Shown here: positions 13,888-49,951 of the stretch, piece by piece
Layout of the letters: the number at the start of each line of letters is the position of its first letter
Position numbering within the stretch: the stretch's first letter is position 1
From: Alicyclobacillus mali NBRC 102425
Lineage (GTDB): Bacteria > Bacillota > Bacilli > Alicyclobacillales > Alicyclobacillaceae
DNA length: 64,000 bases
Assembly (NCBI RefSeq): GCF_001570745.1
Contig: NZ_BCSG01000006.1
Location: 1 to 64,000, forward strand
Reading direction: 5' to 3'
Notes under the pieces: generated by a model
The model's database searches: none
The model's input: only the letters and a program-made list of their open reading frames with translations
What the model was told of the DNA's origin: nothing
Position numbers and translations under genes: made by a program

Positions 13888-15615
13888 TTATTCCGACATT
13901 TCGTTCATCGGATAGGGATCCGTCACGCCCGCATACTGGACCATGACGTCCATGCCGGATGCGGCGTGTTCGAGATCGTGACAATGGAACATCCAAAGCC
14001 CCGGGTTGTCGGCGCGAAATGCGATATCGTAGGATTCGCCGGGAAAGACGTTCAGCGTGTCGAGAAAGATGGGGCTCCCTTGGACCGGCCGTCCATCCCG
14101 GGTCAGCACCTGAAAGTCGTGCCCGTGCAGGTGCATTGGGTGGATGTAGGGGCTGTCGTTCACGATGTGCACGAGAACCGCGTCGCCCTTGTGCACGATG
14201 ATGGGCGGGATGTTCGGGAACACGCGCCCGTTGATGGCGTAGACCATGCCGGTCTGCGACATGCCGACCGTGAGTTTCATGTTGTACCGGACCTGATACG
14301 CCTGATGGAGGCGGAACACGTTCTCGCCGGGTACGCGACCGCGCCCGTAGTCGGTGAAGTCGAACCAAGGTTCGTGCTCGATCGCGGCCGCCGAAATGCC
14401 TTGGAACGAAGCCCATGCGCCGGGACCGCCGATGGCCGCGCGCAGTTCCTGGCGCGCGGTGGCGTCGGGATCGGCCGATACGAGGTACGCGGCGCCGGAC
14501 GGTGGAACGCGAAATTCCACGTCGTAGCGCTCGGCCGCGCCGATGGGCAGCAGGACGCCTTTCAGCCAGCCGGGGTTGGCGATGTCGTGCCCATCGAGCG
14601 CCACGACGCGAAAGGGCGCGCCGACGAGGGTTAACAGGTGCGTCATGTTGCCACTGTTCACGATGCGAAGCCGGACGAGATCGCCCGGTTTGGCGGGCAG
14701 GACGGTGTTCCCGTCCGCATTCTGGTTCACCGTGAAGGCGCCGTACATGCCCGCCATTTCGTCGAGCGCCGCAACGTCGTCGGCGGTCGGCGCGAATGTG
14801 CCCGTTCGGAGGAGAGGCCCTGGCAGCACGTGCAGCATGGAGGTGCTCGCCTTGTTCCCTGCGGCGGATCCCATCATGCCCATGCCGCCCGTCGAGCCTG
14901 TACCGCTCATCATGCCCTGGCTCATCATGCCACCGGCGGAGCCCGCATCCCGCGCACCGGAGTCGAGATTTTCCATCATGGCCTTGGCGGTGGACGCGTT
15001 CGGCCATTCGTGCAGGACCAGCGTGTAGTCTCGCTGAGCCGGATACAGCGGGTGCTTGGGCAGGACGACGATGGCGCCGTAGAGTCCCAGTCCCACCTCT
15101 TCGAAACTGTCGTCGTGCGAATGGTACCAGTACGTTCCGGGCTCGGTCGCCACAAACTCGTACGTGTACGATCCGCCTGGCGGGATGGGGTTCTGCGTGA
15201 CACCCGGCACACCGTCTTCGGCGGCTGGGACCGGGATGCCGTGCCAATGCACCGTCAAAGGCACCGACAGGCGATTGTGCACTGTGACCTCCACCACGTC
15301 GCCTTGGTGCGCCATGAGCAGCGGGCCAGGCGCCGTGCCGTTGAAGGTCATCGCCCGCAGGGTTTCGCCACCGAACGTCAGGGTCCGGTACTCGGCGGTC
15401 AGCGTGAAGTGGTCGACCCGCGCGCCTTGGGGAACCCGCGGCTCAAACGCGCTGACCGGCGTATACGTTCCGCCGGGCCCGGGCACGCGGGCGAGCGGGG
15501 CATCGATGGCCTGGGTCGCCGTCCCGCGATGTGCTTCGTAAACGCCCATCACGCCGACCGCCACCGCGAGCGCCGCCGCTCCTGCAGCAATGCTGAGCTT
15601 CGCTCTGCGCCGCAC
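13888..15615 (-). CDS. Multicopper oxidase with Met-rich insert
   Basis: Enzyme of 575 residues with an N-terminal signal or anchor (about 6-26), so it acts outside the cytoplasm. Copper-ligand motifs are present: HWHG at 123-126, HSH at 165-167, HPMHLHGH and HCHDLEH near the C-terminus, the latter giving type-1 and trinuclear ligands, with Met in the axial position (AASGM). An insert at about 213-260 carries ten methionines in MMSQGMM- and GMGMMG-like clusters, as in CueO-type cuprous oxidases. It probably oxidises Cu(I) or another metal ion using oxygen. GTG start after AGGAGGTG. Co-directional with the hemerythrin gene; divergent from the sulfocyanin-like gene. Confidence 0.92.
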   Translation of the reverse strand: MRRRAKLSIAAGAAALAVAVGVMGVYEAHRGTATQAIDAPLARVPGPGGTYTPVSAFEPRVPQGARVDHFTLTAEYRTLTFGGETLRAMTFNGTAPGPLLMAHQGDVVEVTVHNRLSVPLTVHWHGIPVPAAEDGVPGVTQNPIPPGGSYTYEFVATEPGTYWYHSHDDSFEEVGLGLYGAIVVLPKHPLYPAQRDYTLVLHEWPNASTAKAMMENLDSGARDAGSAGGMMSQGMMSGTGSTGGMGMMGSAAGNKASTSMLHVLPGPLLRTGTFAPTADDVAALDEMAGMYGAFTVNQNADGNTVLPAKPGDLVRLRIVNSGNMTHLLTLVGAPFRVVALDGHDIANPGWLKGVLLPIGAAERYDVEFRVPPSGAAYLVSADPDATARQELRAAIGGPGAWASFQGISAAAIEHEPWFDFTDYGRGRVPGENVFRLHQAYQVRYNMKLTVGMSQTGMVYAINGRVFPNIPPIIVHKGDAVLVHIVNDSPYIHPMHLHGHDFQVLTRDGRPVQGSPIFLDTLNVFPGESYDIAFRADNPGLWMFHCHDLEHAASGMDVMVQYAGVTDPYPMNEMSE

Positions 15616-15915
15616 CTTCGCACCTCCTGTCTTCCCTTTCTCGTCTGCCGTCGTGCGTCATCTTAAGCCCAGGTCTGGCGCGGATCAACGCGTACGGGTC
15701 GAGGGCGCCTGGTTCATGGCAACGAATTCGCCGATTTGTAAAGCTTGATATGTCTATCTGTTCGATCTCTTCTTGCGGGAGCATCGATGGATCATCGACA
15801 GTGGCTCGAGCACCATCGCTCTCCGAACGTGCTCCGCTCTGGGCGGGCGGTGGGATGCGCGGAACATCGCCCCGTGCTACCATGGACGTGAAGGGCGCTC
15901 CATTCGAAAGGGCGG
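15616..15915. promoter_or_regulatory. Divergent intergenic region, copper cluster
   Basis: 300 bases between the divergent oxidase and sulfocyanin genes must hold both promoters. The only element I can support is the oxidase ribosome site (AGGAGGTG near 15629). A TACCAT near 15878 could be a -10 for the sulfocyanin gene. The inverted segment around 15781-15800 (ATCGATGGATCATCGAC) could be an operator, but no known metal-regulator motif is recognised. Confidence 0.35.
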
Positions 15916-30380: not shown

Positions 30381-30466
30381 GTCCACGCCACCAGGCCAAT
30401 GGCCAGGGCGAGGCACGCCAGAATCGTCACAATCGGGTCAAGGTTGCCGTGCAAAGGATCCGTCAC
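30365..30466 (-). CDS. 33-residue membrane peptide coupled to dinB
   Basis: Short open frame with GTG start at 30466, overlapping the dinB stop by GTGA, with GAGGAGGAA just upstream inside the end of dinB. The product has an acidic/polar N-terminus, one hydrophobic helix (IVTILACLALAIGLVAW) and an Arg-rich end. Length, ribosome site and coupling support real translation. The family is unknown. It may be a small single-pass membrane protein; that it is made from the SOS polymerase message is inference. Confidence 0.6.
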   Translation of the reverse strand: MTDPLHGNLDPIVTILACLALAIGLVAWTSRRS

Positions 30467-31722
30467 GGTGTTTCCTCCTCATCATCCAAACGTTCGAGCG
30501 ACGTGCCGCGGGCGTGCACGTCGTCCCTCTGCCCGGAAAGCGAGCGGCCCAGGCGGATGGCGCTCGGGCCGAACTTGGCCCGCACTTCGTCGATGGCGCG
30601 CTCGAGCTTCTCCAGTCGCTCGTCCCTCGGCTCGGTCGCGATGGGCACGGCGTCCCACAGGTGAAGCTGCACGCCCTGCCCGTCGCGCGGCACCAGGCCC
30701 TCCACCGAGACCCCGAGCAGTCGAACCGGCTCGACCGGCCAAATCCGTTCAAACAGTGCCCTCGCGGCTTGAAAAAGTTCACCGGTGTGGCGCACGTAGG
30801 TCGCCAGGGTGTCCTGGTGGCGCGAGGTGCGCATCCGGCGATCCCGCACGGCCACGGCGACCACGCGGCCCATCAGGCCGTAGCCCCGCATGCGCGACGC
30901 GACGCGATCGCACAAGTCCATCACGACGCCCTCCACCTCGGCAAACGACCGCGCGTCCTTGGCCAAGGTCATCGAGTGGCCCACGCTCTTCGGCGGCTGA
31001 GGCTCCGTCTCGAGCGGGCGCGGATCGATGCCATTGGCGCGCGCCTTCAGCTCGGCAGCCCGCGGCCCGAGCGTGCGGGCGAGGACATCAAGCGACTGCA
31101 CGGCGAGATCGCCAATGGTGACGATGCCGAGGCGCTTAAGCCTCTTCGCAGTGCTCGGGCCGACGCCGTGCATATGCTCGATGGCGAGCGGCCACAGTAA
31201 GCTGCGAATGTGGTCGGTGCGAAGCTCCGTGATGCCCATCGGCTTTTTCATGTCGCTCGCCATCTTGGCCAGGAACTTGTTGGACGCCACGCCGATGCTT
31301 GACGGAAGCCCAAGCGAGTCGAGCAGGCGGGCCTGAATGGCGCGGGCGAGACGGACCGGCCTGTCCCCGCCCGGCACGCGCGTGACGTCCGCGTAACACT
31401 CGTCAATGCTGACGATCTCGACATCCGGCGTGAACTCGCGCACGATGGCGAACACCTTGCGCGCATAAGCGCGGTACAGCCGAAAGTCGGGCCGCACAAG
31501 GATAAGCTCCGGGCAGCGCGCCAGAGCCTGGTGGACCGGCATGGGCGGCTTGACCCCTCGGGCTCGGGCCTCGTAGCTCGCGGTGACGACGATGCCGTGG
31601 CGCGTGGCCGGATTGCCCGCGACAGCGATGGCCTTGCCCGCATAGCGCGCTGGATCGACGGCGGCGTGACACGAAGCATAAAAGGCGTTCATGTCGATGT
31701 GAAGGATTTGCCGCTGCGAAAT
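30463..31722 (-). CDS. dinB: DNA polymerase IV (DinB), apparent ATT start
   Basis: Y-family lesion-bypass polymerase, 419 residues from the proposed start. The first ATG (31692) gives a product beginning MNAFYAS, which would lack the first metal-binding Asp of the HIDM motif. The upstream codons read ISQRQILHIDM, exactly the family N-terminus, but between the in-frame TGA (31729-31731) and this ATG no ATG, GTG or TTG exists. ATT at 31720-31722 sits 6 bases after AGAGGTGA, an ideal ribosome site. The other catalytic pair is in SIDECYAD. The polymerase does error-prone translesion synthesis; it typically has SOS or stationary-phase control. Confidence 0.9.
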   Translation of the reverse strand: MSQRQILHIDMNAFYASCHAAVDPARYAGKAIAVAGNPATRHGIVVTASYEARARGVKPPMPVHQALARCPELILVRPDFRLYRAYARKVFAIVREFTPDVEIVSIDECYADVTRVPGGDRPVRLARAIQARLLDSLGLPSSIGVASNKFLAKMASDMKKPMGITELRTDHIRSLLWPLAIEHMHGVGPSTAKRLKRLGIVTIGDLAVQSLDVLARTLGPRAAELKARANGIDPRPLETEPQPPKSVGHSMTLAKDARSFAEVEGVVMDLCDRVASRMRGYGLMGRVVAVAVRDRRMRTSRHQDTLATYVRHTGELFQAARALFERIWPVEPVRLLGVSVEGLVPRDGQGVQLHLWDAVPIATEPRDERLEKLERAIDEVRAKFGPSAIRLGRSLSGQRDDVHARGTSLERLDDEEETP

Positions 31723-31913
31723 GCGAAATCACCTCTAGGCATCAGTGTACCGCAAGCCAGGGATATTCGCGTACGAACTTCGCGCAAGCTTTCACGGCCT
31801 CCGCGACAGATGTTCGGCTCCCATGCGGACGCATGCGGTACAATGCGTGTTGGACAACCTGATTTGAGCGACAAATTGAGCGATAAGTCGCACGTATGAA
31901 AAGGAGACTGTGT

Positions 31914-32366
31914 GTGCAGAGCAAGGAACAGCGCTTGATGCGCATTCGCGAGATTGTGAGCCAGAACGAGATTGAGACCCAGGAGGACCTGGTGCACGCG
32001 CTCGAGGAGGCGGGATTCCCCGTCACGCAGGCCACCATCTCGCGGGATATCAAGGAACTGCAACTCGTGAAGGTGGTGGGTTCAAACGGCAAGTACAAGT
32101 ACGCCCTGCCCACCGCGGTGAACAAGGTCTCGGTGGATGCGCTGCAGCGTCGCTTGGCAGAGGTGTTCATCTCGCACGCGCGCGCCAACAATCTCATCGT
32201 CATCAAAGTGGCGCCCGGGAATGCGCACGCCATTGGCGCGCTGATGGACGCGCTGGATCCGCCTGGGCTGCTCGGCACCATTTGCGGGGACGACACCATG
32301 CTGCTCGTGTGCCAGGACGAGGAGGCCGCCGTCCGGCTGCTCCACGAGACGTTGAACATCGGGTGA
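31914..32366 (+). CDS. argR: Arginine repressor ArgR/AhrC
   Basis: Protein of 150 residues. GTG 31914 follows AAAAGGAGACT; the upstream ATG at 31896 overlaps that ribosome site and is less likely. The N-terminal winged helix contains QATISRDIKELQLVKV; the C-terminal arginine-binding and hexamerisation domain contains GNAHAIGALMDALD, GTICGDDT. It represses arginine synthesis and activates catabolism. ARG boxes were not identified in the window. A TACAAT near 31838 could be its -10. Confidence 0.95.
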   Translation: MQSKEQRLMRIREIVSQNEIETQEDLVHALEEAGFPVTQATISRDIKELQLVKVVGSNGKYKYALPTAVNKVSVDALQRRLAEVFISHARANNLIVIKVAPGNAHAIGALMDALDPPGLLGTICGDDTMLLVCQDEEAAVRLLHETLNIG

Positions 32367-32454
32367 CGCTGGCGTTTCGCGTTTTCCGAGTTATACTATA
32401 GAAGTTGGCATATTTCTGCTGCGGCCTCGGCTGCGGTGCGTGAGGAGATTGGCC

Positions 32455-33378
32455 ATGCCATTGTACAACTCGATTCTCGATCTCGTCGGTCACACGCCGG
32501 TCGTTCGCCTGAACCGCCTGCCGGACCCGAACGGCGCGAGCGTCTACGTGAAGCTCGAAGGCAAGAATCCGGCCGGCAGCGTGAAGGATCGGCCGGCCTT
32601 GAACATGATTTTGGAGGCGGAGCGGCAGGGCAAGCTCATCCCGGGCAAGAGCACCGTCATCGAGGCGACGTCCGGCAACACGGGCATCGGACTCGCCATG
32701 GTCTGCGCCGCCAAGGGGTATCGCTGCATCATCACGATGCCCGAGAACGCCACAGAGGAGCGCGTCAAATTGCTCAAGGCGTACGGTGCCGAGGTGCACC
32801 TGACGCCGGAGTCGAAGCGGATGAAGGGGGCCATCGATCTCGCCGAGGAACTCGCTGCGCGCATTCCGCACAGCTTCATTCCGGCCCAGTTTGACAATCC
32901 GTCAAATCCCGATGCACACCGCAAGACGACGGCGCTCGAAATCATCGAGGACTTCGAGGGCAAGCTGGACGCGCTTGTGTTGACCGCCGGCACGGGCGGC
33001 ACGGTGACGGGCACGGGCGAAGTGCTGAAGCAGCGCATTCCGGGAATCAAAATTTACGTCGTGGAGCCGAAGGGCTCGCCCGTCCTTTCGGGCGGTCAGC
33101 CGGGTCCGCACAAGATCCCCGGAACCGGTCCGGGTTTTGTGCCGCGCATCCTGAACCGCGAGGCGTTTGACGAGATTCTGCTGATTGAAGATCACGACGC
33201 GCAGATGATGGCGCGCCGCGTCGCCGCCGAAGAGGGAATTCTGCTCGGAGCTTCCGGGGCCGCGTCGGTTTTTCACGGACTTCGCGTCGCGGCGGAACTG
33301 CCGAAGGAGGCGCGCGTGCTCTGCATGGCGCCAGATACCGGGGAGAGGTATCTTTCGTCCGATTTGTACCAGAGTTGA
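32455..33378 (+). CDS. cysK: Cysteine synthase A
   Basis: PLP enzyme of 307 residues that makes cysteine from O-acetylserine and sulfide. Motifs: PAGSVKDR with the PLP lysine near 44, the TSGNTGIGLA substrate loop, and GTGGTVTG for cofactor phosphate. ATG follows GAGGAGA. A TATACT lies at 32392-32397. The serine acetyltransferase supplying its substrate lies at 19.7 kb. In many bacteria the two form a complex through the SAT C-terminal Ile, which is not present here, as the SAT ends in HS. Confidence 0.95.
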   Translation: MPLYNSILDLVGHTPVVRLNRLPDPNGASVYVKLEGKNPAGSVKDRPALNMILEAERQGKLIPGKSTVIEATSGNTGIGLAMVCAAKGYRCIITMPENATEERVKLLKAYGAEVHLTPESKRMKGAIDLAEELAARIPHSFIPAQFDNPSNPDAHRKTTALEIIEDFEGKLDALVLTAGTGGTVTGTGEVLKQRIPGIKIYVVEPKGSPVLSGGQPGPHKIPGTGPGFVPRILNREAFDEILLIEDHDAQMMARRVAAEEGILLGASGAASVFHGLRVAAELPKEARVLCMAPDTGERYLSSDLYQS

Positions 33379-33465
33379 CGCGCCTTGCATCGAAATTTCC
33401 GCGCTACAAGCGCAAAGATAGGTCTCAAGACTCATGTGACAACCGGGCGGACCGGATATACTGTC

Positions 33466-33560
33466 GGTGTGGTGTAGTTGACCTTGTTCTACACTGTACC
33501 TATCCCTGACTGCCCGGTCGTGCGGGAAACCCCGTCTCAAGCGAGAGACGGGGTTTTTGC
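33466..33560 (+). ncRNA. Candidate small RNA
   Basis: A TATACT at 33457-33462 (weak -35 near 33435) is followed after about 70 bases by a strong intrinsic terminator. The interval has a 6-bp stem (GTGTAG/CTACAC), another small stem (CCCG/CGGG), and no plausible open frame. This predicts a roughly 95-nt transcript. It does not match a family that I can recognise. It could also be just the 3' end of the cysK message. Confidence 0.35.
33529..33558. terminator. Strong terminator
   Basis: ACCCCGTCTC (33529-33538) pairs with GAGACGGGGT (33545-33554), followed by TTTT. On the opposite strand the stem is followed by TTTCCCG, so it works mainly in the plus direction. Confidence 0.85.
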
Positions 33561-33677
33561 TGCTTTGAGGTTCGAGTGACAGGACGCGGAAGCCTGGCGT
33601 CGCATACCCCTACCCGGGTCTCCTGTCCCGGGGGCATGGCGCAGGAACGGAATTGCGAGATGGGCCCGCCGCACCTG

Positions 33678-33704
33678 AAAAGGGCGCCGCATGTAGCGGC
33701 GCCC
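33678..33704 (-). terminator. Terminator of secreted helical protein gene
   Basis: Perfect 9-bp stem GGGCGCCGC (33682-33690) with GCGGCGCCC (33696-33704); on the minus strand it is followed by TTTTCAGG. Confidence 0.8.
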
Positions 33705-33709
33705 GCATC

Positions 33710-34399
33710 CTAGCTCGACAGTCCAGCCTGGAGCGTGCCGGTCATCTTCGCCAGGATCTTTGTGGCCGTCTTCAGGTCCGACACCTTCTGTTGTTCGAGT
33801 TGCGTCATATCGAGCAGTGCGGCGAGAAGTTCGCTGTTATCGCCGGCGGCGTGGGCCTGCTGAAGGAGCTGGAAATCGGCAGAGACCTGCGCCTGTGTGT
33901 ACAGCGCATCCTCGAGGTACGAGACGACGGCGGTGGAATCCGGCGTCTGCTGCGTCAAAATGTCGAGATCGCCCACCTGGACGAACAGTTGAAGCGCGTC
34001 GATGTACGCGTTGACGGCGGCTTGCAGTTGAGCCTGCGCCTGCTTGTCGCTCTGCGTGGCCTGCTTGTAGGACTGGAGCGTCTGCTGAAGCGCCTGGTCA
34101 ATGGCCTCGGGCGACGTGGGAAGCGACTGCGTCGGCAGCGGCGGATGCGAGATCTGCGTCGGATGAATGTTTTCATACGGCGCTATGGCCTGCTCAAACT
34201 GCGTGATGATCTGGTGGATGTTCGGCCGAGTGCCATTGCCCGCGGGCGCACCGTCGGTTCCGTTTCCTGTGGTGTTGGCGACGGCCAAAAGCACGGCGCC
34301 TGGCGTGGTGTACGCTTGGGCGACAGGCGCTCCGGTGAAAGACAGGAGACTGACGGATGCCGCGATGGCAAGAAAAAGACCCCGATTCACAGAAGTCAC
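33710..34399 (-). CDS. Secreted helical protein of unknown function
   Basis: Protein of 229 residues with a clear signal peptide (NRGLFLAIAASVSLLSFTGA, cleavage near AQA-Y at residue 29). The mature part is low-complexity at first (Asn/Gly/Thr/Pro-rich), then strongly helical and rich in Gln, Ala and Leu, with repeats of short QALQQTLQSYKQATQ-type helices. No Cys and no catalytic motif are visible. It might be a cell-surface or spore-envelope structural protein. I do not recognise the family. Confidence 0.65.
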   Translation of the reverse strand: MTSVNRGLFLAIAASVSLLSFTGAPVAQAYTTPGAVLLAVANTTGNGTDGAPAGNGTRPNIHQIITQFEQAIAPYENIHPTQISHPPLPTQSLPTSPEAIDQALQQTLQSYKQATQSDKQAQAQLQAAVNAYIDALQLFVQVGDLDILTQQTPDSTAVVSYLEDALYTQAQVSADFQLLQQAHAAGDNSELLAALLDMTQLEQQKVSDLKTATKILAKMTGTLQAGLSS

Positions 34400-34469
34400 C
34401 TCGATTGTGTGGTATCACATTCATTCGTCACATCGAGGTGAAACTGTGGGGGTCCGTCGCAGGACTCTG

Positions 34470-34661
34470 TCACTTTCCGGCGGACTGGCGCAGCCGCTCG
34501 ACGCCATACGCCGTCAGAAATGCGGCTGCCGTGATGGCGAGGTGCTGCGAGAAGTGGGCCACCGGCTGCGCGTCGTCGATCACGCCCGGCAAATACGTTG
34601 CAGCGAGCGCCGCTGCGCCGACGTAGGCTGCACCGGCGTGAAGCCAGGTTGAACGCTTCAT
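34470..34661 (-). CDS. Small membrane protein, second of a coupled pair
   Basis: Protein of 63 residues. ATG 34661 overlaps the stop of the upstream small gene (ATGA), so the two are translationally coupled. Two hydrophobic helices (about 8-24 and 42-54), with the intervening loop carrying His-rich AHFSQHLA, which might bind haem or metal. I do not recognise the family; a distant likeness to CtaG/DUF1404-type oxidase-assembly membrane proteins is a guess. Confidence 0.6.
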   Translation of the reverse strand: MKRSTWLHAGAAYVGAAALAATYLPGVIDDAQPVAHFSQHLAITAAAFLTAYGVERLRQSAGK

Positions 34662-34900
34662 GAGCGCGCCACCTCCTCCGCATCGGCGGCACTGTACTCG
34701 CGCTCTTCGGTCCGATGGCGCGCCGCGCTCTGCGCCGCATAGCGGGCGGCTTCGAAGCCCAGCAATCCGCCGGATACGAGGAACAGCACGTGCGCCAAGG
34801 CGTGATGAATGATGGATGCGTCCGCCCACGCGTCGACGCTGGGCCATACGCCTACCGCCCATGCTGCGAGGGCCGCGACGATGGTCAACGGGATCTTCAA
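34658..34900 (-). CDS. Small membrane protein, first of a coupled pair
   Basis: Protein of 80 residues. GGGAGGT precedes a TTG at 34900 with about 9 bases spacing; TTG 34906 and 34930 are alternatives. Two membrane helices, the second containing IIHHALAHVLFLVSGGLLGFE, in which three His residues line one helix face; a charged acidic tail follows. Coupled by ATGA overlap to the next small gene, which also has a His-bearing membrane helix. The pair could form one multi-helix haem or metal-binding unit. Function not recognised. Confidence 0.6.
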   Translation of the reverse strand: MKIPLTIVAALAAWAVGVWPSVDAWADASIIHHALAHVLFLVSGGLLGFEAARYAAQSAARHRTEEREYSAADAEEVARS

Positions 34901-34987
34901 AGGCAATCGACCTCCCTGCGAGTGTTTCAAGACTGACGCTCCTTACAAGTTTGCTCGCAGAGATGAAAAGTTAAACGTGGTGGCCGC

Positions 34988-35878
34988 TCACGGCGCGCTT
35001 TGTCGGAATCGCCCGATGACCTCCGTCGTGTCGAGGATGGTGATGAATGCGTCGGGATCGAGCGACTGGACGATCTCCTTGAGATCCGCAATTTCCAGGT
35101 GCGTCATGGCGCAGAGCAGCACGCCGCGCTCGCGCTGTGTGTACGCGCCGTACGCGCGCATGACCGTGGAGCCGCGCACGAGCCGCTGGCCGATGGCGCT
35201 CGCCACCTCGCTCGGCTTGGACGTCACAATGAGCGCCGTCTTCCGCTGCTGGAAGTGCATCAGGCCGGAAACGACGCGGGAGGCGGCGTACATGCTGACG
35301 AGCGTGTACAAGCCCGCTGGCACGCCGAACACCAGCATGGACAAAAGGACGATGGCGGCGTTCATCACGAAGCTCACAGAGCCGATGTTGCGCCCCGTCA
35401 GGCGGTGCACCACGAGGCTCACGATGTCCGTTCCGCCCATGGAACCGCCGACGCGGATGACGAGCCCGGACGAGAGCCCGGTGAGCACGCCGCCGTACAG
35501 GCCCATGAGCAGGGGATCCGTCGGCGTGGCAAAATGGAGCCGCACAAAATCGGCGAGCGCGGAGAAGCCGAGGATGGCAATGCCGGTCTGAAAGATGAAC
35601 CTGCGCCCGAGGTATCGATAGCCGAGGATGAAAAGCGGGATATTGAACACGAAGTACATGGTGCCCACGCCGAGCGCGGGAGCGTAGTGATGGAGGATCT
35701 GCGCCACGCCGGTCACGCCGCCGGCGAGGATGTGGGCGGGGGTGAGGAAGTTGTTGACCGCGACGGCGCCCACCAAGTCGGAAAAGAGGATGACCGCGAT
35801 GCGCCACGTCCAATCGAGCACAGGATGGGAGGCGCCGCGCATGCCGACCATTCGGCGCATGTCTTCATATACGCGCAT
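34988..35878 (-). CDS. YitT-family membrane protein (DUF161/DUF2179)
   Basis: Protein of 296 residues with five or so membrane helices followed by a soluble C-terminal domain. Family signatures: NNFLTPAHILAGGVTGVAQI near the start, GGSMGGTDI near 145, and a C-terminal DUF2179 segment (AYGAYTQRERGVLLCAMTHL). YitT proteins are proposed transporters; the substrate is unknown. A single gene on the minus strand. Confidence 0.92.
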   Translation of the reverse strand: MRVYEDMRRMVGMRGASHPVLDWTWRIAVILFSDLVGAVAVNNFLTPAHILAGGVTGVAQILHHYAPALGVGTMYFVFNIPLFILGYRYLGRRFIFQTGIAILGFSALADFVRLHFATPTDPLLMGLYGGVLTGLSSGLVIRVGGSMGGTDIVSLVVHRLTGRNIGSVSFVMNAAIVLLSMLVFGVPAGLYTLVSMYAASRVVSGLMHFQQRKTALIVTSKPSEVASAIGQRLVRGSTVMRAYGAYTQRERGVLLCAMTHLEIADLKEIVQSLDPDAFITILDTTEVIGRFRQSAP

Positions 35879-36016
35879 GACTCATGTCTCCTCGTCGCTC
35901 ATGCTTTGCCACCATTCTACACGGATTTTGAAGGCAATTGACGACAGGTTCGTGAAAGCTATGATCAAGCTAGATTCTAAGCCGCGAGGGACCGCGTGGC
36001 GGTCCGAGGAGGATCC

Positions 36017-37324
36017 GTGACGACCAAACATCAGCAAATCCTGGAGTACATCCGATCGCTGCCGGTTGGATCCCAGATTTCCGTCCGCAAGATCGCGCGC
36101 GTGTTGAACGTGTCCGAGGGGACGGCCTACCGCGCCATCAAGGAGGCTGAGGCGGAAGGCTTCGTGTCCACCCTGGACCGGATTGGCACGGTGCGCGTGG
36201 AAAAGAAGGAGAAGGAGCAAATTGAGCGCCTGACCTTTGCCGAGGTGGTGCGCATCGTGGAAGGAACGGTGCTCGGCGGCAAGGAAGGGCTGCATAAGAC
36301 TCTCAGTCGCTTCGTCATTGGCGCCATGCGCACCGAGTCCATCAGCCGGTACCTGAGCCCCGGATGTCTGATGATTGTCGGCAACCGGGAGCAGGTGCAG
36401 CGGATGTCGCTCAAGAGCGGCGCCGCGGTGCTCATCACGGGTGGTTTCACGGCCTCGCCCATGGTCGAGAAGCTCGCCAACGAGTACCAATTGCCGCTGA
36501 TCTCGTGTTCGTACGACACGTTCACGACCGCTTCGCTCATCAACCGAGCTCTTTACGATCGGCTGATCAAAAAAGACATCCTGTACGTGGAGGATGTGCT
36601 TCAAGATCAGCCGCTCGTCAGCCTGCGCCCCGACGACACCGTGCGCAAGTACTATCACCTTGTCGAGGAGTCCGGCCATTCGCGCATGCCGGTGGTGGAC
36701 GCCAACGGTCGGCTCGTCGGGATCATCAGTCCGCGCGACGTCGCCGAGGCGGAGCTCGACGCTCCGGTCTCCCGCTACATGACGCGCAACCCGGTGTCCG
36801 TCACGCCGAAGACCACCATCGCCTCTGCAGCGCACCGGATGGCGTTCGAGGGCTTCGAGATCATGCCCGTGGTGAAGGACAAGGACGTAATTGGCGTGAT
36901 CACGCGCCAGGACGTCATTCGGGCGCTCCAGATCATGAACCGACAGCCGCAGGTGGGGGAAACCGTCGAGGACGTTGTGGTGCGTGACTTCAGCGTGGCC
37001 CAGAGCCCAGACGGCTCCACGGTGTTGCGAGGCCAGGTCACGCCGCAGATGACGACTTCAGGCGGCACGCTCGCGACGGGATCGCTCACGACCATCATTC
37101 AGGAGGCGGCGCGCGTCTGCCTGCGCAGGGCGCGGCACGTCGATATGCTCATTGAGAACGTGACGTTGTACGTGCTTCGGCCCGTGCCGGTCGATACCAC
37201 CATCGACGCGCGGGCGCGCGTGCTGAACGATGGACGGCGCTACGCCAAGGTGGAGGTCGAGATCGCGGACAAGAGCGACGTGTTCGCGAAGGCGCTCGTC
37301 ACCGCGCAGTGGATCGAGAGGTGA
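36017..37324 (+). CDS. YtoI-like CBS/DRTGG/hot-dog protein
   Basis: Protein of 435 residues. Domains in order: an N-terminal winged helix (about 5-65), a DRTGG domain (about 70-185), two CBS motifs (about 190-315, including DDTVRKYYHLVEESGHSRMPVV and FEGFEIMPVVKDKDVIGV), and a hot-dog thioesterase-like fold (about 330-435). CBS domains usually bind adenosyl nucleotides, so it is probably a nucleotide-sensing regulator. GTG 36017 after GAGGAGGA. The stop lies just ahead of the dnaE start, so the two genes are probably co-transcribed, as in Bacillus. Confidence 0.9.
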   Translation: MTTKHQQILEYIRSLPVGSQISVRKIARVLNVSEGTAYRAIKEAEAEGFVSTLDRIGTVRVEKKEKEQIERLTFAEVVRIVEGTVLGGKEGLHKTLSRFVIGAMRTESISRYLSPGCLMIVGNREQVQRMSLKSGAAVLITGGFTASPMVEKLANEYQLPLISCSYDTFTTASLINRALYDRLIKKDILYVEDVLQDQPLVSLRPDDTVRKYYHLVEESGHSRMPVVDANGRLVGIISPRDVAEAELDAPVSRYMTRNPVSVTPKTTIASAAHRMAFEGFEIMPVVKDKDVIGVITRQDVIRALQIMNRQPQVGETVEDVVVRDFSVAQSPDGSTVLRGQVTPQMTTSGGTLATGSLTTIIQEAARVCLRRARHVDMLIENVTLYVLRPVPVDTTIDARARVLNDGRRYAKVEVEIADKSDVFAKALVTAQWIER

Positions 37325-47196: not shown

Positions 47197-47337
47197 GAGC
47201 GATTGCATGAGCGGGCCGGCGTGCTATATGATGGGTGAGGATGCACTGCGAGACAAGGGCGGGCGGCGGCAAGCTGCGCCGCTTCTTGTTGCGCACGGTC
47301 ATCGAGAGAGAACGCATCGAGATTGGGAGGGCCTGCC

Positions 47338-48636
47338 ATGCCGACGTTTGAGAGGTATCAACTGCCAACGGAGGGCGAACCCATTGCGTTGGTGGACGGG
47401 AAATTGAACGTGCCGGATCACCCAATTATTCCGTTTATCGAAGGAGACGGCACAGGGCCGGATATCTGGCGGGCGTCGCAGCGCGTGTTCGACGCCGCCG
47501 TCGAGAAGGCGTATGGCGGTAAGCGCAAGATCGCCTGGTACGAGGTGTACGCTGGCGAGAAGGCATACAACATGTTTGGCGAATGGCTGCCGCAGGATAC
47601 GTTGACCGCGCTGTCGGAATATATCGTCAGCATCAAGGGGCCCTTGACCACGCCGGTGGGCGGCGGCATCCGTTCGCTGAACGTGGCGGTCCGCCAGGAG
47701 CTGGACCTGTACGTCTGCCAGCGCCCAGTGCGTTACTTCCAAGGCGTTCCTTCGCCCGTGAAACATCCTGAACTCGTGGACATGGTGATTTTCCGCGAAA
47801 ACTCGGAGGACATTTACGCCGGGATCGAGTGGCAGGCGGGCACGCCTGAGGTGCAGAAGGTCATCGAGTTCCTCCAGAAGGAGATGGGTGTCAAGAAGAT
47901 CCGCTTCCCGGAGACGTCCGGCATCGGCGTGAAGCCCGTCTCCCGCGAGGGCACGGACCGCCTCGTTCGGGCTGCCATCGAATACGCCCTGCGCCACAAG
48001 CGCAAGAGCGTCACGCTCGTCCACAAGGGCAACATCATGAAGTTCACCGAGGGCGCGTTCAAGAACTGGGGCTACGAGCTCGCCGAGCGCGAATTCTCGG
48101 ACAAGGTGTTCACGTGGGCGCAGTATGACCGCATCAAGGCCGACAAGGGCCAGGAGGCCGCGGACGCCGCCCAGAAGGAGGCCGTGGAGGCCGGGAAGAT
48201 CATCGTGAAGGACGTGATCGCCGACGCCTTCCTGCAGCAGATCCTTACGCGTCCGGCCGAGTACGACGTCATCGCCACCCTCAACCTGAATGGCGACTAT
48301 ATCTCGGACGCGCTCGCCGCGCAGGTCGGCGGCATTGGCATTGCGCCGGGCGCCAACATTAACTATGAAACGGGGCACGCGGTCTTCGAGGCGACGCACG
48401 GTACGGCGCCGAAGTACGCGGGGCTCGACAAGGTGAACCCGGGCTCGGTGATTCTCTCGGGCGTCATGATGTTCGAGTACATGGGCTGGCAAGAGGCTGC
48501 TGATCTCATCACCCGCGCGATGGAGAAGACCATTGCGCAGAAGACCGTCACGTACGACTTTGCCCGCCTGATGGAGGGCGCGACCGAGGTGAAGTGCTCC
48601 GAGTTCGGCGATCACATCATCAAAAATATGGACTGA
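47338..48636 (+). CDS. icd: Isocitrate dehydrogenase (NADP+)
   Basis: TCA-cycle enzyme of 432 residues; isocitrate to 2-oxoglutarate with NADPH. Motifs: [32 protein letters not shown] (substrate Ser and Arg), [11 protein letters not shown], and NLNGDYISD (metal Asp). The cofactor pocket residues HGTAPKYAG and following fit NADP. Forms a unit with mdh, 12 bases downstream. ATG after GGGAGGG. Confidence 0.96.
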
Positions 48637-48648
48637 GGAGCGGTTCGC

Positions 48649-49584
48649 ATGTTGGAGAGGAAGAAAATCTCGGTGATCGGCGCCGGATTCACGGGCGCCA
48701 CCACGGCGTTTTTGCTGGCGGCCAAGGAACTTGGTGACGTGGTCCTCGTGGACATCCCGTCGCTCGAAAATCCCACCAAAGGCAAGGCGCTCGACATGCT
48801 CGAGGCCATGCCCGTGCTCGGGAGCGATGCCCACGTCGTGGGGACGTCCGATTACGAGGACACGGCCGGATCGGACCTCGTCATCATCACGGCGGGATTG
48901 CCCCGCAAACCCGGGATGAGCCGGGACGATCTCGTCAACACCAACGCGAACATCGTGAAGTCGGTCACCGAGCAGGTGGTGCGGTACTCGCCGGACGCCT
49001 GTCTCATCGTCCTCTCCAACCCCGTGGACGCCATGACGTACGTGGCGTACAAGACGAGCGGATTTCCGAAGCAGCGCGTCATCGGGCAGGCAGGCGTGCT
49101 CGACACGGCCCGCTTCAACACGTTTGTGGCGATGGAGCTCGGCGTGTCCGTGGAGGACGTGCGCGGCTTTGTCCTCGGCGTGCATGGCGACCACATGGTG
49201 CCGCTCGTCCGCTACGCGAACGTCGGCGGCGTGCCGCTTGAAAAGCTGCTCCCGAAGGAGCGGATTGACGCCATCGTCGAGCGCACCCGGAACGGGGGCG
49301 GCGAAATTGTCAGCCTGATGGGCAACGCGAGCGCGTATTACGCCCCGGCCGCATCGCTGCTGCAGATGGCGGAGTCCATTCTGAAGGATAAGCGGCGTGT
49401 GTTGCCCGCCATCGCGTATCTCGAAGGAGAATACGGCTATCGGGATCTCACGCTCGGCGTTCCGACGGTGCTCGGCAAAGGCGGGATTGAACGCATCCTG
49501 GAACTCGATCTTCTGCCGGAGGAAAAGGCGGCGCTCGACAAGTCCGCCGAGTCCGTGCGCAGGCTGATCTCCGTGATCTCCTGA
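48649..49584 (+). CDS. mdh: Malate dehydrogenase
   Basis: NAD-dependent LDH-like malate dehydrogenase of 311 residues. It has [10 protein letters not shown] for dinucleotide binding (near 11-20), [14 protein letters not shown] with substrate Arg, SNPVDAM, and the catalytic GVHGDHMVP with His about 183. Oxidises malate to oxaloacetate. Co-transcribed with icd; citrate synthase, often upstream in Bacillus, is not in the window. Confidence 0.96.
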
Positions 49585-49598
49585 TCTGAAGCAGACGG

Positions 49599-49638
49599 GC
49601 GAAAGCCAAGGGGCCTGTGTCCCTTGGCTTTCGCTTTT
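49599..49638 (+). terminator. icd-mdh terminator
   Basis: Perfect 14-bp stem GCGAAAGCCAAGGG (49599-49612) with CCCTTGGCTTTCGC (49621-49634), followed by TTTT. The convergent chorismate mutase gene ends at this point. Confidence 0.88.
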
Positions 49639-49951
49639 AGACGGTGCGGGTCGAGCGCTCGAACGCCCTCAGACGTTCGCCTTGCCGACGGCAGGACTCC
49701 TCGTGCACGAGTGTCCAGAGCGCCGAGAGGAAGGGCGGGTTCAGCCCAAGCGCGGCACCCGCTTCAAGGTAGCGAGCCCGCACCTCCTGGGCGCGATCGG
49801 GTTGTACCACCGCTTGACGCCGGAGTGCCTTGTGTTCGGCAATTTCGTCGGCGATGGCGAAGCGCCGGGCCAAGAATGTAAGAATTTGTTCGTCGATGGC
49901 ATCAATGGCGCGGCGCAGGTCGCGAAGTTCTTCGTCCAGTGGGCGCTGCAC
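49637..49951 (-). CDS. Chorismate mutase (AroQ class)
   Basis: Protein of 104 residues from GTG 49951 with AAAGGAG 10 bases upstream. Helical AroQ-fold pattern: LRDLRRAIDAIDEQILTFLA, then RRFAIADEIAEHK with conserved Arg and Lys of the active site, RAQEVRARYLEAG. It converts chorismate to prephenate for phenylalanine and tyrosine. It is a stand-alone mutase, not fused to DAHP synthase or prephenate dehydratase. A T-box leader with a Phe-type specifier precedes it. Confidence 0.88.
   Translation of the reverse strand: MQRPLDEELRDLRRAIDAIDEQILTFLARRFAIADEIAEHKALRRQAVVQPDRAQEVRARYLEAGAALGLNPPFLSALWTLVHEESCRRQGERLRAFERSTRTV

Follow-up and report, generated by a model that had tools for sequence, protein, structure and literature searches.

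A conserved ATT codon as the probable translation start of dinB in an Alicyclobacillus clade

The dinB gene and its start region

The window, by which we mean the whole 64,000-nucleotide stretch of the Alicyclobacillus mali NBRC 102425 genome that was analysed, carries on its minus strand a dinB gene for a DNA polymerase IV of the PolY1/YqjH type (30463–31722, 419 codons from an ATT codon, stop codon included). The gene is divergent from argR/ahrC (31896–32366; TIGR01529). The features of Y-family polymerases are present in the encoded protein, namely a palm domain with an early Asp and an S-I-D-E motif, an HhH thumb and a little finger, the early Asp being counted only if the codons upstream of the first in-frame ATG (31690–31692) are translated. 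Pfam domains IMS, IMS_HHH and IMS_C are found with or without these upstream codons. When they are included, DinB scores 405.8 bits against NCBIfam NF002492 (“DNA polymerase IV”, cut-off 399), a model which presumably covers YqjH, and 267.7 bits against NF002677 (“DNA polymerase IV”, cut-off 256), placing it above both cut-offs, whereas the version starting at ATG 31692 falls below both (389.2 and 248.8 bits).

Read on the minus strand in the dinB frame, the start region consists of the codons TGA (31731–31729), TTT, CGC, ATT (31722–31720), TCG, CAG, CGG, CAA, ATC, CTT, CAC, ATC, GAC (31695–31693) and ATG (31692–31690). Two in-frame stops close the frame upstream (31729–31737), TAG (31737–31735) and the TGA, and no ATG, GTG or TTG lies in frame between this TGA and ATG 31692. 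The GAC codon specifies the first metal-binding Asp, aligning with the Asp of the HVDMD/HVDLD motif in solved Pol IV chains, and in alignments to solved structures QRQILHID, encoded upstream of ATG 31692, matches the N-terminus with its Asp, e.g., KRKIIHVDMD in 7yll_A. In an 8-row alignment this Asp is invariant, as are the L and the H. The corresponding residue in E. coli Pol IV belongs to the set D8, D103 and E104, described as coordinating two Mg2+ ions (PMC4564189).

A Shine-Dalgarno (SD) sequence, GAGGTGAT (31728–31735, minus strand), forms eight contiguous pairs with the 16S rRNA 3′ end of the same genome, GGCTGGATCACCTCCTTTCT. The ATT lies 6 bases after AGGTGA and, counted from the base that aligns with the final G of GGAGG, at a distance of 9 nt, hence the codon has a strong SD at functional spacing (8-bp run, spacing 9). 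With a duplex energy of −14.0, the dinB SD is equalled or exceeded in 51 of 167 genes sampled from the same genome. Runs of at least 5 at an accepted spacing (4–13, the limit set in the script) were found in 112 of the 167, with 103 of these 112 at spacing 6–11, but the script had SD strength and spacing among its criteria when choosing the start codons of these genes, which builds part of the spacing result into the sample and makes it a rough yardstick. A first-pass annotation of this DNA had described the interval as lacking ATG, GTG and TTG, had put the ATT 6 nt after AGAGGTGA and had counted the first metal-binding Asp among the intervening codons; its coordinates proved right on re-reading, and the SD match was located at 31735–31728.

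Further upstream, TACACT (31744–31749, minus strand) is invariant in six genomes and is a putative −10 element, in which case the mRNA could possibly begin close to the SD. No sigma-70 promoter pair was detected upstream of dinB at the scan threshold, and no −35 was found. The larger block TGCG.TACACT (31744–31754) is likewise invariant in the six genomes, while much of the intergenic region diverges; searched in the window with up to 1 mismatch, TGCGNTACACT is not commoner than in shuffled sequence. We also searched the window for CGAACNNNNGTTCG, which we take to be the LexA box consensus. Allowing up to 2 mismatches, the window contained 46 sites where 53 were expected, with none at 30381–36498, a search in which degenerate boxes could be missed. 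A 3-mismatch half-like site seen by eye at 31816–31803 is not kept in the alignment of relatives. The only perfect site in the window, CGAACCAAGGTTCG (14361–14374), is inside the frame 13891–15657. Since this search of the window revealed no LexA-like site in the neighbourhood of dinB, SOS control of the gene was dropped, and the first-pass description of an SOS polymerase is left unsupported, B. subtilis PolY1 also being described as constitutive (PMC13335488).

Conservation of the start region and probable non-canonical starts in the genus

Fifteen genomes of the genus were compared, with a dinB protein match in all 15. In five of them, including that of the window (G000), we report no second Y-family gene because the dinB locus was the sole match to the query. 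Comparison of dinB 5′ ends among related Alicyclobacillus genomes, which the first-pass annotation had proposed as a check, showed the ATT context to be kept in six genomes of these thermoacidophilic bacteria, counted as six species: G000, G003, G002, G012, G009 and G014, the last five with DinB 95, 95, 93, 88 and 79% identical to that of the window. None of the six has an ATG, GTG or TTG in the interval that separates the upstream stop from the conserved N-terminus, and the ATT is identical in each, with no reversion to ATG. In the other nine genomes (dinB 46–53% identical) a canonical codon, ATG in seven and GTG in two, is found close to this position and is preceded by a purine-rich SD site. 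An 18-mer spanning SD, spacer and ATT, TAGAGGTGATTTCGCATT (31720–31737, minus strand), occurs exactly once, at dinB, in each of the six genomes and not at all in the other nine; its reversed-pattern control had no match in the 15 genomes. The codons following the ATT vary among relatives (TCG/CCG/CCC, then CAG/ACG), and the residues ILHID are invariant across the six. Among the best 80 of a larger number of named dinB loci, the open frame ahead of the Asp contains a canonical codon in 79, a test of the presence of such a codon and not of its use, and the sole exception, Alicyclobacillus fructus (L031), belongs to the ATT clade.

To set these counts against chance, we used 23 genes of the window for which six rows could be aligned; 27 had been selected, of which 4 were skipped for want of a match in all five relatives. 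Of 4329 fourfold-degenerate sites, 1499 (35%) were the same across the six genomes, and such sites differed from G000 by up to 40%, while the SD, spacer and ATT of dinB are all invariant. Ordinary ATT isoleucine codons stayed ATT in all six genomes in 26 of 129 cases (20%), hence conservation of the ATT codon by itself is weak evidence and could be luck. The invariant run of SD, spacer and ATT, with a chance of about 0.35^18 (an approximation assuming neutral, independent sites), is well beyond chance and is strong evidence. The dinB coding sequence from the ATT has a dN/dS of 0.10–0.20 (15 pairs, six genomes), by which measure the protein is under purifying selection. Judged from these sequences, the dinB of the ATT clade is intact and under selection and encodes a Y-family polymerase with predicted activity.

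A second gene with a comparable arrangement is infC, which encodes IF3, present in all 15 genomes and without ATG, GTG or TTG at its start in any of them. Its putative start, assigned from layout and precedent, reads GGAGGTGA-N6-ATA in the six genomes with the dinB ATT and GGAGGTGA-N6-ATT in the other nine (15/15 loci). The dinB start, AGAGGTGA-N6-ATT, has the same AGGTGA-N6 layout. It would appear, then, that these bacteria already use a non-canonical start preceded by a long SD. The rare start codon of infC differs (ATA vs ATT) in just the clade carrying the dinB ATT.

Comparing the window with close relatives was of no use for detecting other non-canonical starts, since frames that overlap genes or run antisense to them also remain open and can be aligned, and a more distant genome of the genus was used instead. 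A 789-codon frame (47302–49668, minus strand) runs antisense across the genes 47323–48636 and 48649–49584, which we presume to encode isocitrate and malate dehydrogenase; it aligns nearly full length with five close relatives and is probably an artefact that codon usage produces in a GC-rich genome. For the distant comparison 297 kb of G000, a portion containing the window, were set against 364 kb of G005, which gave 212 reciprocal pairs after overlap removal, some of them perhaps spurious frames. In twelve G000 rows, 6 or more residues encoded ahead of the first canonical codon could be aligned, and the last eight showed an identity of 60% or higher. Seven of these were at 60–75% and five at 75% or above, a limit chosen after the 12-row list had been seen: infC, dinB, a CotJC-like gene, C1:190155 and C1:191321. 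The last two were rejected as non-canonical starts; our explanation for them is a TTG preceded by AAGAGGAGG and an overlap with the gene before.

The CotJC-like gene (G000:C1:128605-129171, with orthologues L177–L191) belongs to the manganese-catalase family (Pfam Mn_catalase), the name CotJC being our assumption. ATC is found at its putative start in 9 of 15 genomes, with ATG (1), GTG (1) or TTG (4) in the same column in relatives. In five of these nine, a stop immediately upstream leaves the ATC as the apparent sole start; in L182–L185 an in-frame TTG or GTG occurs 3–6 codons upstream and the ATC start is less sure. Second copies in two genomes (G013:C236; G004:C1:697392-697954; L193, L194, L196) appear broken, with one TGA inside and the first part in a separate piece.

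Competing readings of the start

Taken together, the six-genome conservation, the SD and its spacing, the infC-like layout, the loss of the Asp under a downstream start and the canonical starts of nine relatives lead us to place high confidence in translation of dinB starting at ATT 31722–31720, and only marginally less in this ATT being a functional weak start. The same evidence strongly supports the ATT start proposed by the first-pass annotation.

One reading accepts initiation at the ATT and removes any regulation from it: a weak start fixed by drift in the clade ancestor and tolerated where little DinB is needed. As a sub-case of the functional weak start, its odds do not add to those of the other alternatives; we regard it as a serious possibility, albeit not the favoured one. 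No sign of a sensor was found, and a predicted helix with the AUU in its loop, although the minimum-energy fold of 60 nt in four of six genomes and of 40 nt in five of six (the latter count leaving out L031, an apparent duplicate of G009), did not stand out from dinucleotide-shuffled sequences (z −1.48 to +0.23). G012 and G014 prefer another 60-nt fold, no compensating changes were seen by eye in the alignment, and the hairpin was dropped as a candidate. The 20% baseline for ATT conservation, furthermore, is not negligible. Against drift stand the invariance of SD, spacer and ATT beside the fourfold divergence, the lack of any reversion to ATG in six genomes and the existence of precedents where such starts matter.

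It is improbable that translation starts at another non-canonical codon, for which CGC 31725, TTT 31728, ATC 31707, CTT 31704 and ATC 31698 come into question, all in open frame. CGC would use the same SD match as the ATT at spacing 6, a distance that does not in itself speak against it, and TTT has an SD run of 7 at spacing 3, but neither codon is a one-base neighbour of ATG, which would make them poorer starts. In infC, moreover, the ATT or ATA is located exactly six bases after AGGTGA, as is the dinB ATT, and this shared layout argues for ATT over CGC. For ATC 31707 and CTT there is virtually no SD (duplex −1.7, with 167 of 167 sampled genes as good or better), and ATC 31698 has a run of 4 (−5.3), making unlikely the CTT or ATC start which the first-pass annotation had held as an alternative.

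A start at ATG 31692, the first canonical codon and presumably the choice of gene callers limited to ATG, GTG and TTG, would imply either a truncated, catalytically dead DinB or a decaying gene. This ATG has no proper SD, its best run being 4 at spacing 17 (duplex −5.3; 157 of 167 sampled genes as good or better), and the conserved SD ends 35 nt upstream. The protein would lose the Asp aligned with solved Pol IV chains and fall short of the two NCBIfam cut-offs, and decay fits poorly with the invariant ILHID in six genomes, the invariant L, H and D in eight rows and the low dN/dS; we consider this start very improbable. Still less probable is initiation in another frame, at ATG 31742 or GTG 31732, followed by ribosomal frameshifting or coupling. 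The frame opened by ATG 31742 has 17 codons and a stop overlapping ATG 31692; ATG 31742 is, however, missing in G002 and G014 and has an SD duplex of −3.1, while GTG 31732 (−5.7) is itself within the SD, and no slippery run was seen by eye. A leader peptide from ATG 31742 was dropped as a candidate, the ATG being missing in two of six genomes. A sequencing or assembly error hiding an ATG, GTG or TTG would find some support in the window coming from a single draft assembly of 85 contigs. Named as a sequencing error by the first-pass annotation, this alternative is hardly credible and is refuted by the same 18-mer in six assemblies counted as six species, including the single-contig G003 and the four-contig G002.

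Proposed initiation at ATT and comparison with known systems

Under initiation at the ATT, the codon would be read as fMet, giving M-S-Q-R-Q-I-L-H-I-D-M, with the long SD GAGGTGAT at normal spacing bringing the 30S subunit to a weak start codon. AUU pairs imperfectly with initiator tRNA and such complexes are disfavoured and destabilised by IF3, so initiation would be slow and DinB kept at a low level. Low yield and dependence on IF3 are expectations from this scheme. IF3 throttling of dinB is plausible by analogy, infC being also non-canonical in the same genomes and sigR of Streptomyces offering a parallel, and we lean slightly towards IF3 discrimination setting the DinB level in vivo. A low ceiling on DinB makes sense because excess Pol IV is described as lethal in E. 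coli (PMC4564189); overproduced PolY1 is also reported to raise mutagenesis in B. subtilis (PMC13335488). The arrangement points to translation initiation, and not SOS-controlled transcription, as a step at which the amount of a mutagenic polymerase can be limited. More speculatively, and in our view doubtfully, infC (ATA), dinB (ATT) and the CotJC-like Mn catalase (ATC) might form a small set sharing IF3-discriminated starts, which would couple mutagenesis to initiation fidelity and not to SOS; if true, the supply of an error-prone polymerase would rise and fall with IF3 and with the state of the ribosome pool.

Conserved non-canonical starts are uncommon and escape gene callers; in this case the usual choice of the first ATG would yield a polymerase lacking its catalytic Asp. 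We found no report of an ATT start of dinB in the open literature on dinB, Pol IV or translesion synthesis and non-canonical starts, a scope with subscription papers mostly outside it. The dinB ATT would be an addition to the known genes with conserved non-canonical starts, and a moderately surprising one for the gene involved.

The window's DinB resembles B. subtilis PolY1 (YqjH), described as Pol IV-like (PMC13335488); the relatives read outside the ATT clade have canonical dinB starts. AUU is also the start codon of E. coli infC and pcnB, whose levels are described as limited at initiation, with infC autocontrolled by IF3 (PMC1780047, PMC5472188). They share the AUU with dinB but differ in gene and phylum, and for dinB the dependence on IF3 would hold by analogy. 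Streptomyces sigR is a stress gene with a clade-conserved non-canonical start, and has an extensive ribosome-binding site (PMC5472188). Its start is GTC and not ATT, however, and its repression by IF3 is reported as shown by experiment (PMC5472188). In Listeria, fixed non-canonical starts are given for 6 of 2265 conserved genes, and reporters rank ATG > ATA > ATT (PMC13068326).

Comparable genes are cvfC1 (AUU), ccpN (AUA) and infC (AUA) of S. aureus, reported to have conserved starts with extended SDs (PMC13009471); like dinB, they combine membership of the Bacillota, a conserved non-canonical start and a long start-proximal SD. The cvfC1 and ccpN starts differ from AUG in reporters and are described as limiting initiation (PMC13009471). 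These S. aureus starts were mapped by retapamulin ribosome profiling, with reporters for cvfC1 and ccpN, whereas that of dinB is predicted from sequence. An AUU start has also been inferred for lepA of Borrelia burgdorferi and Bacillus licheniformis, where the full-length protein needs it (PMC1780047), and the case for dinB is of the same kind, with its ATT conserved in six species.
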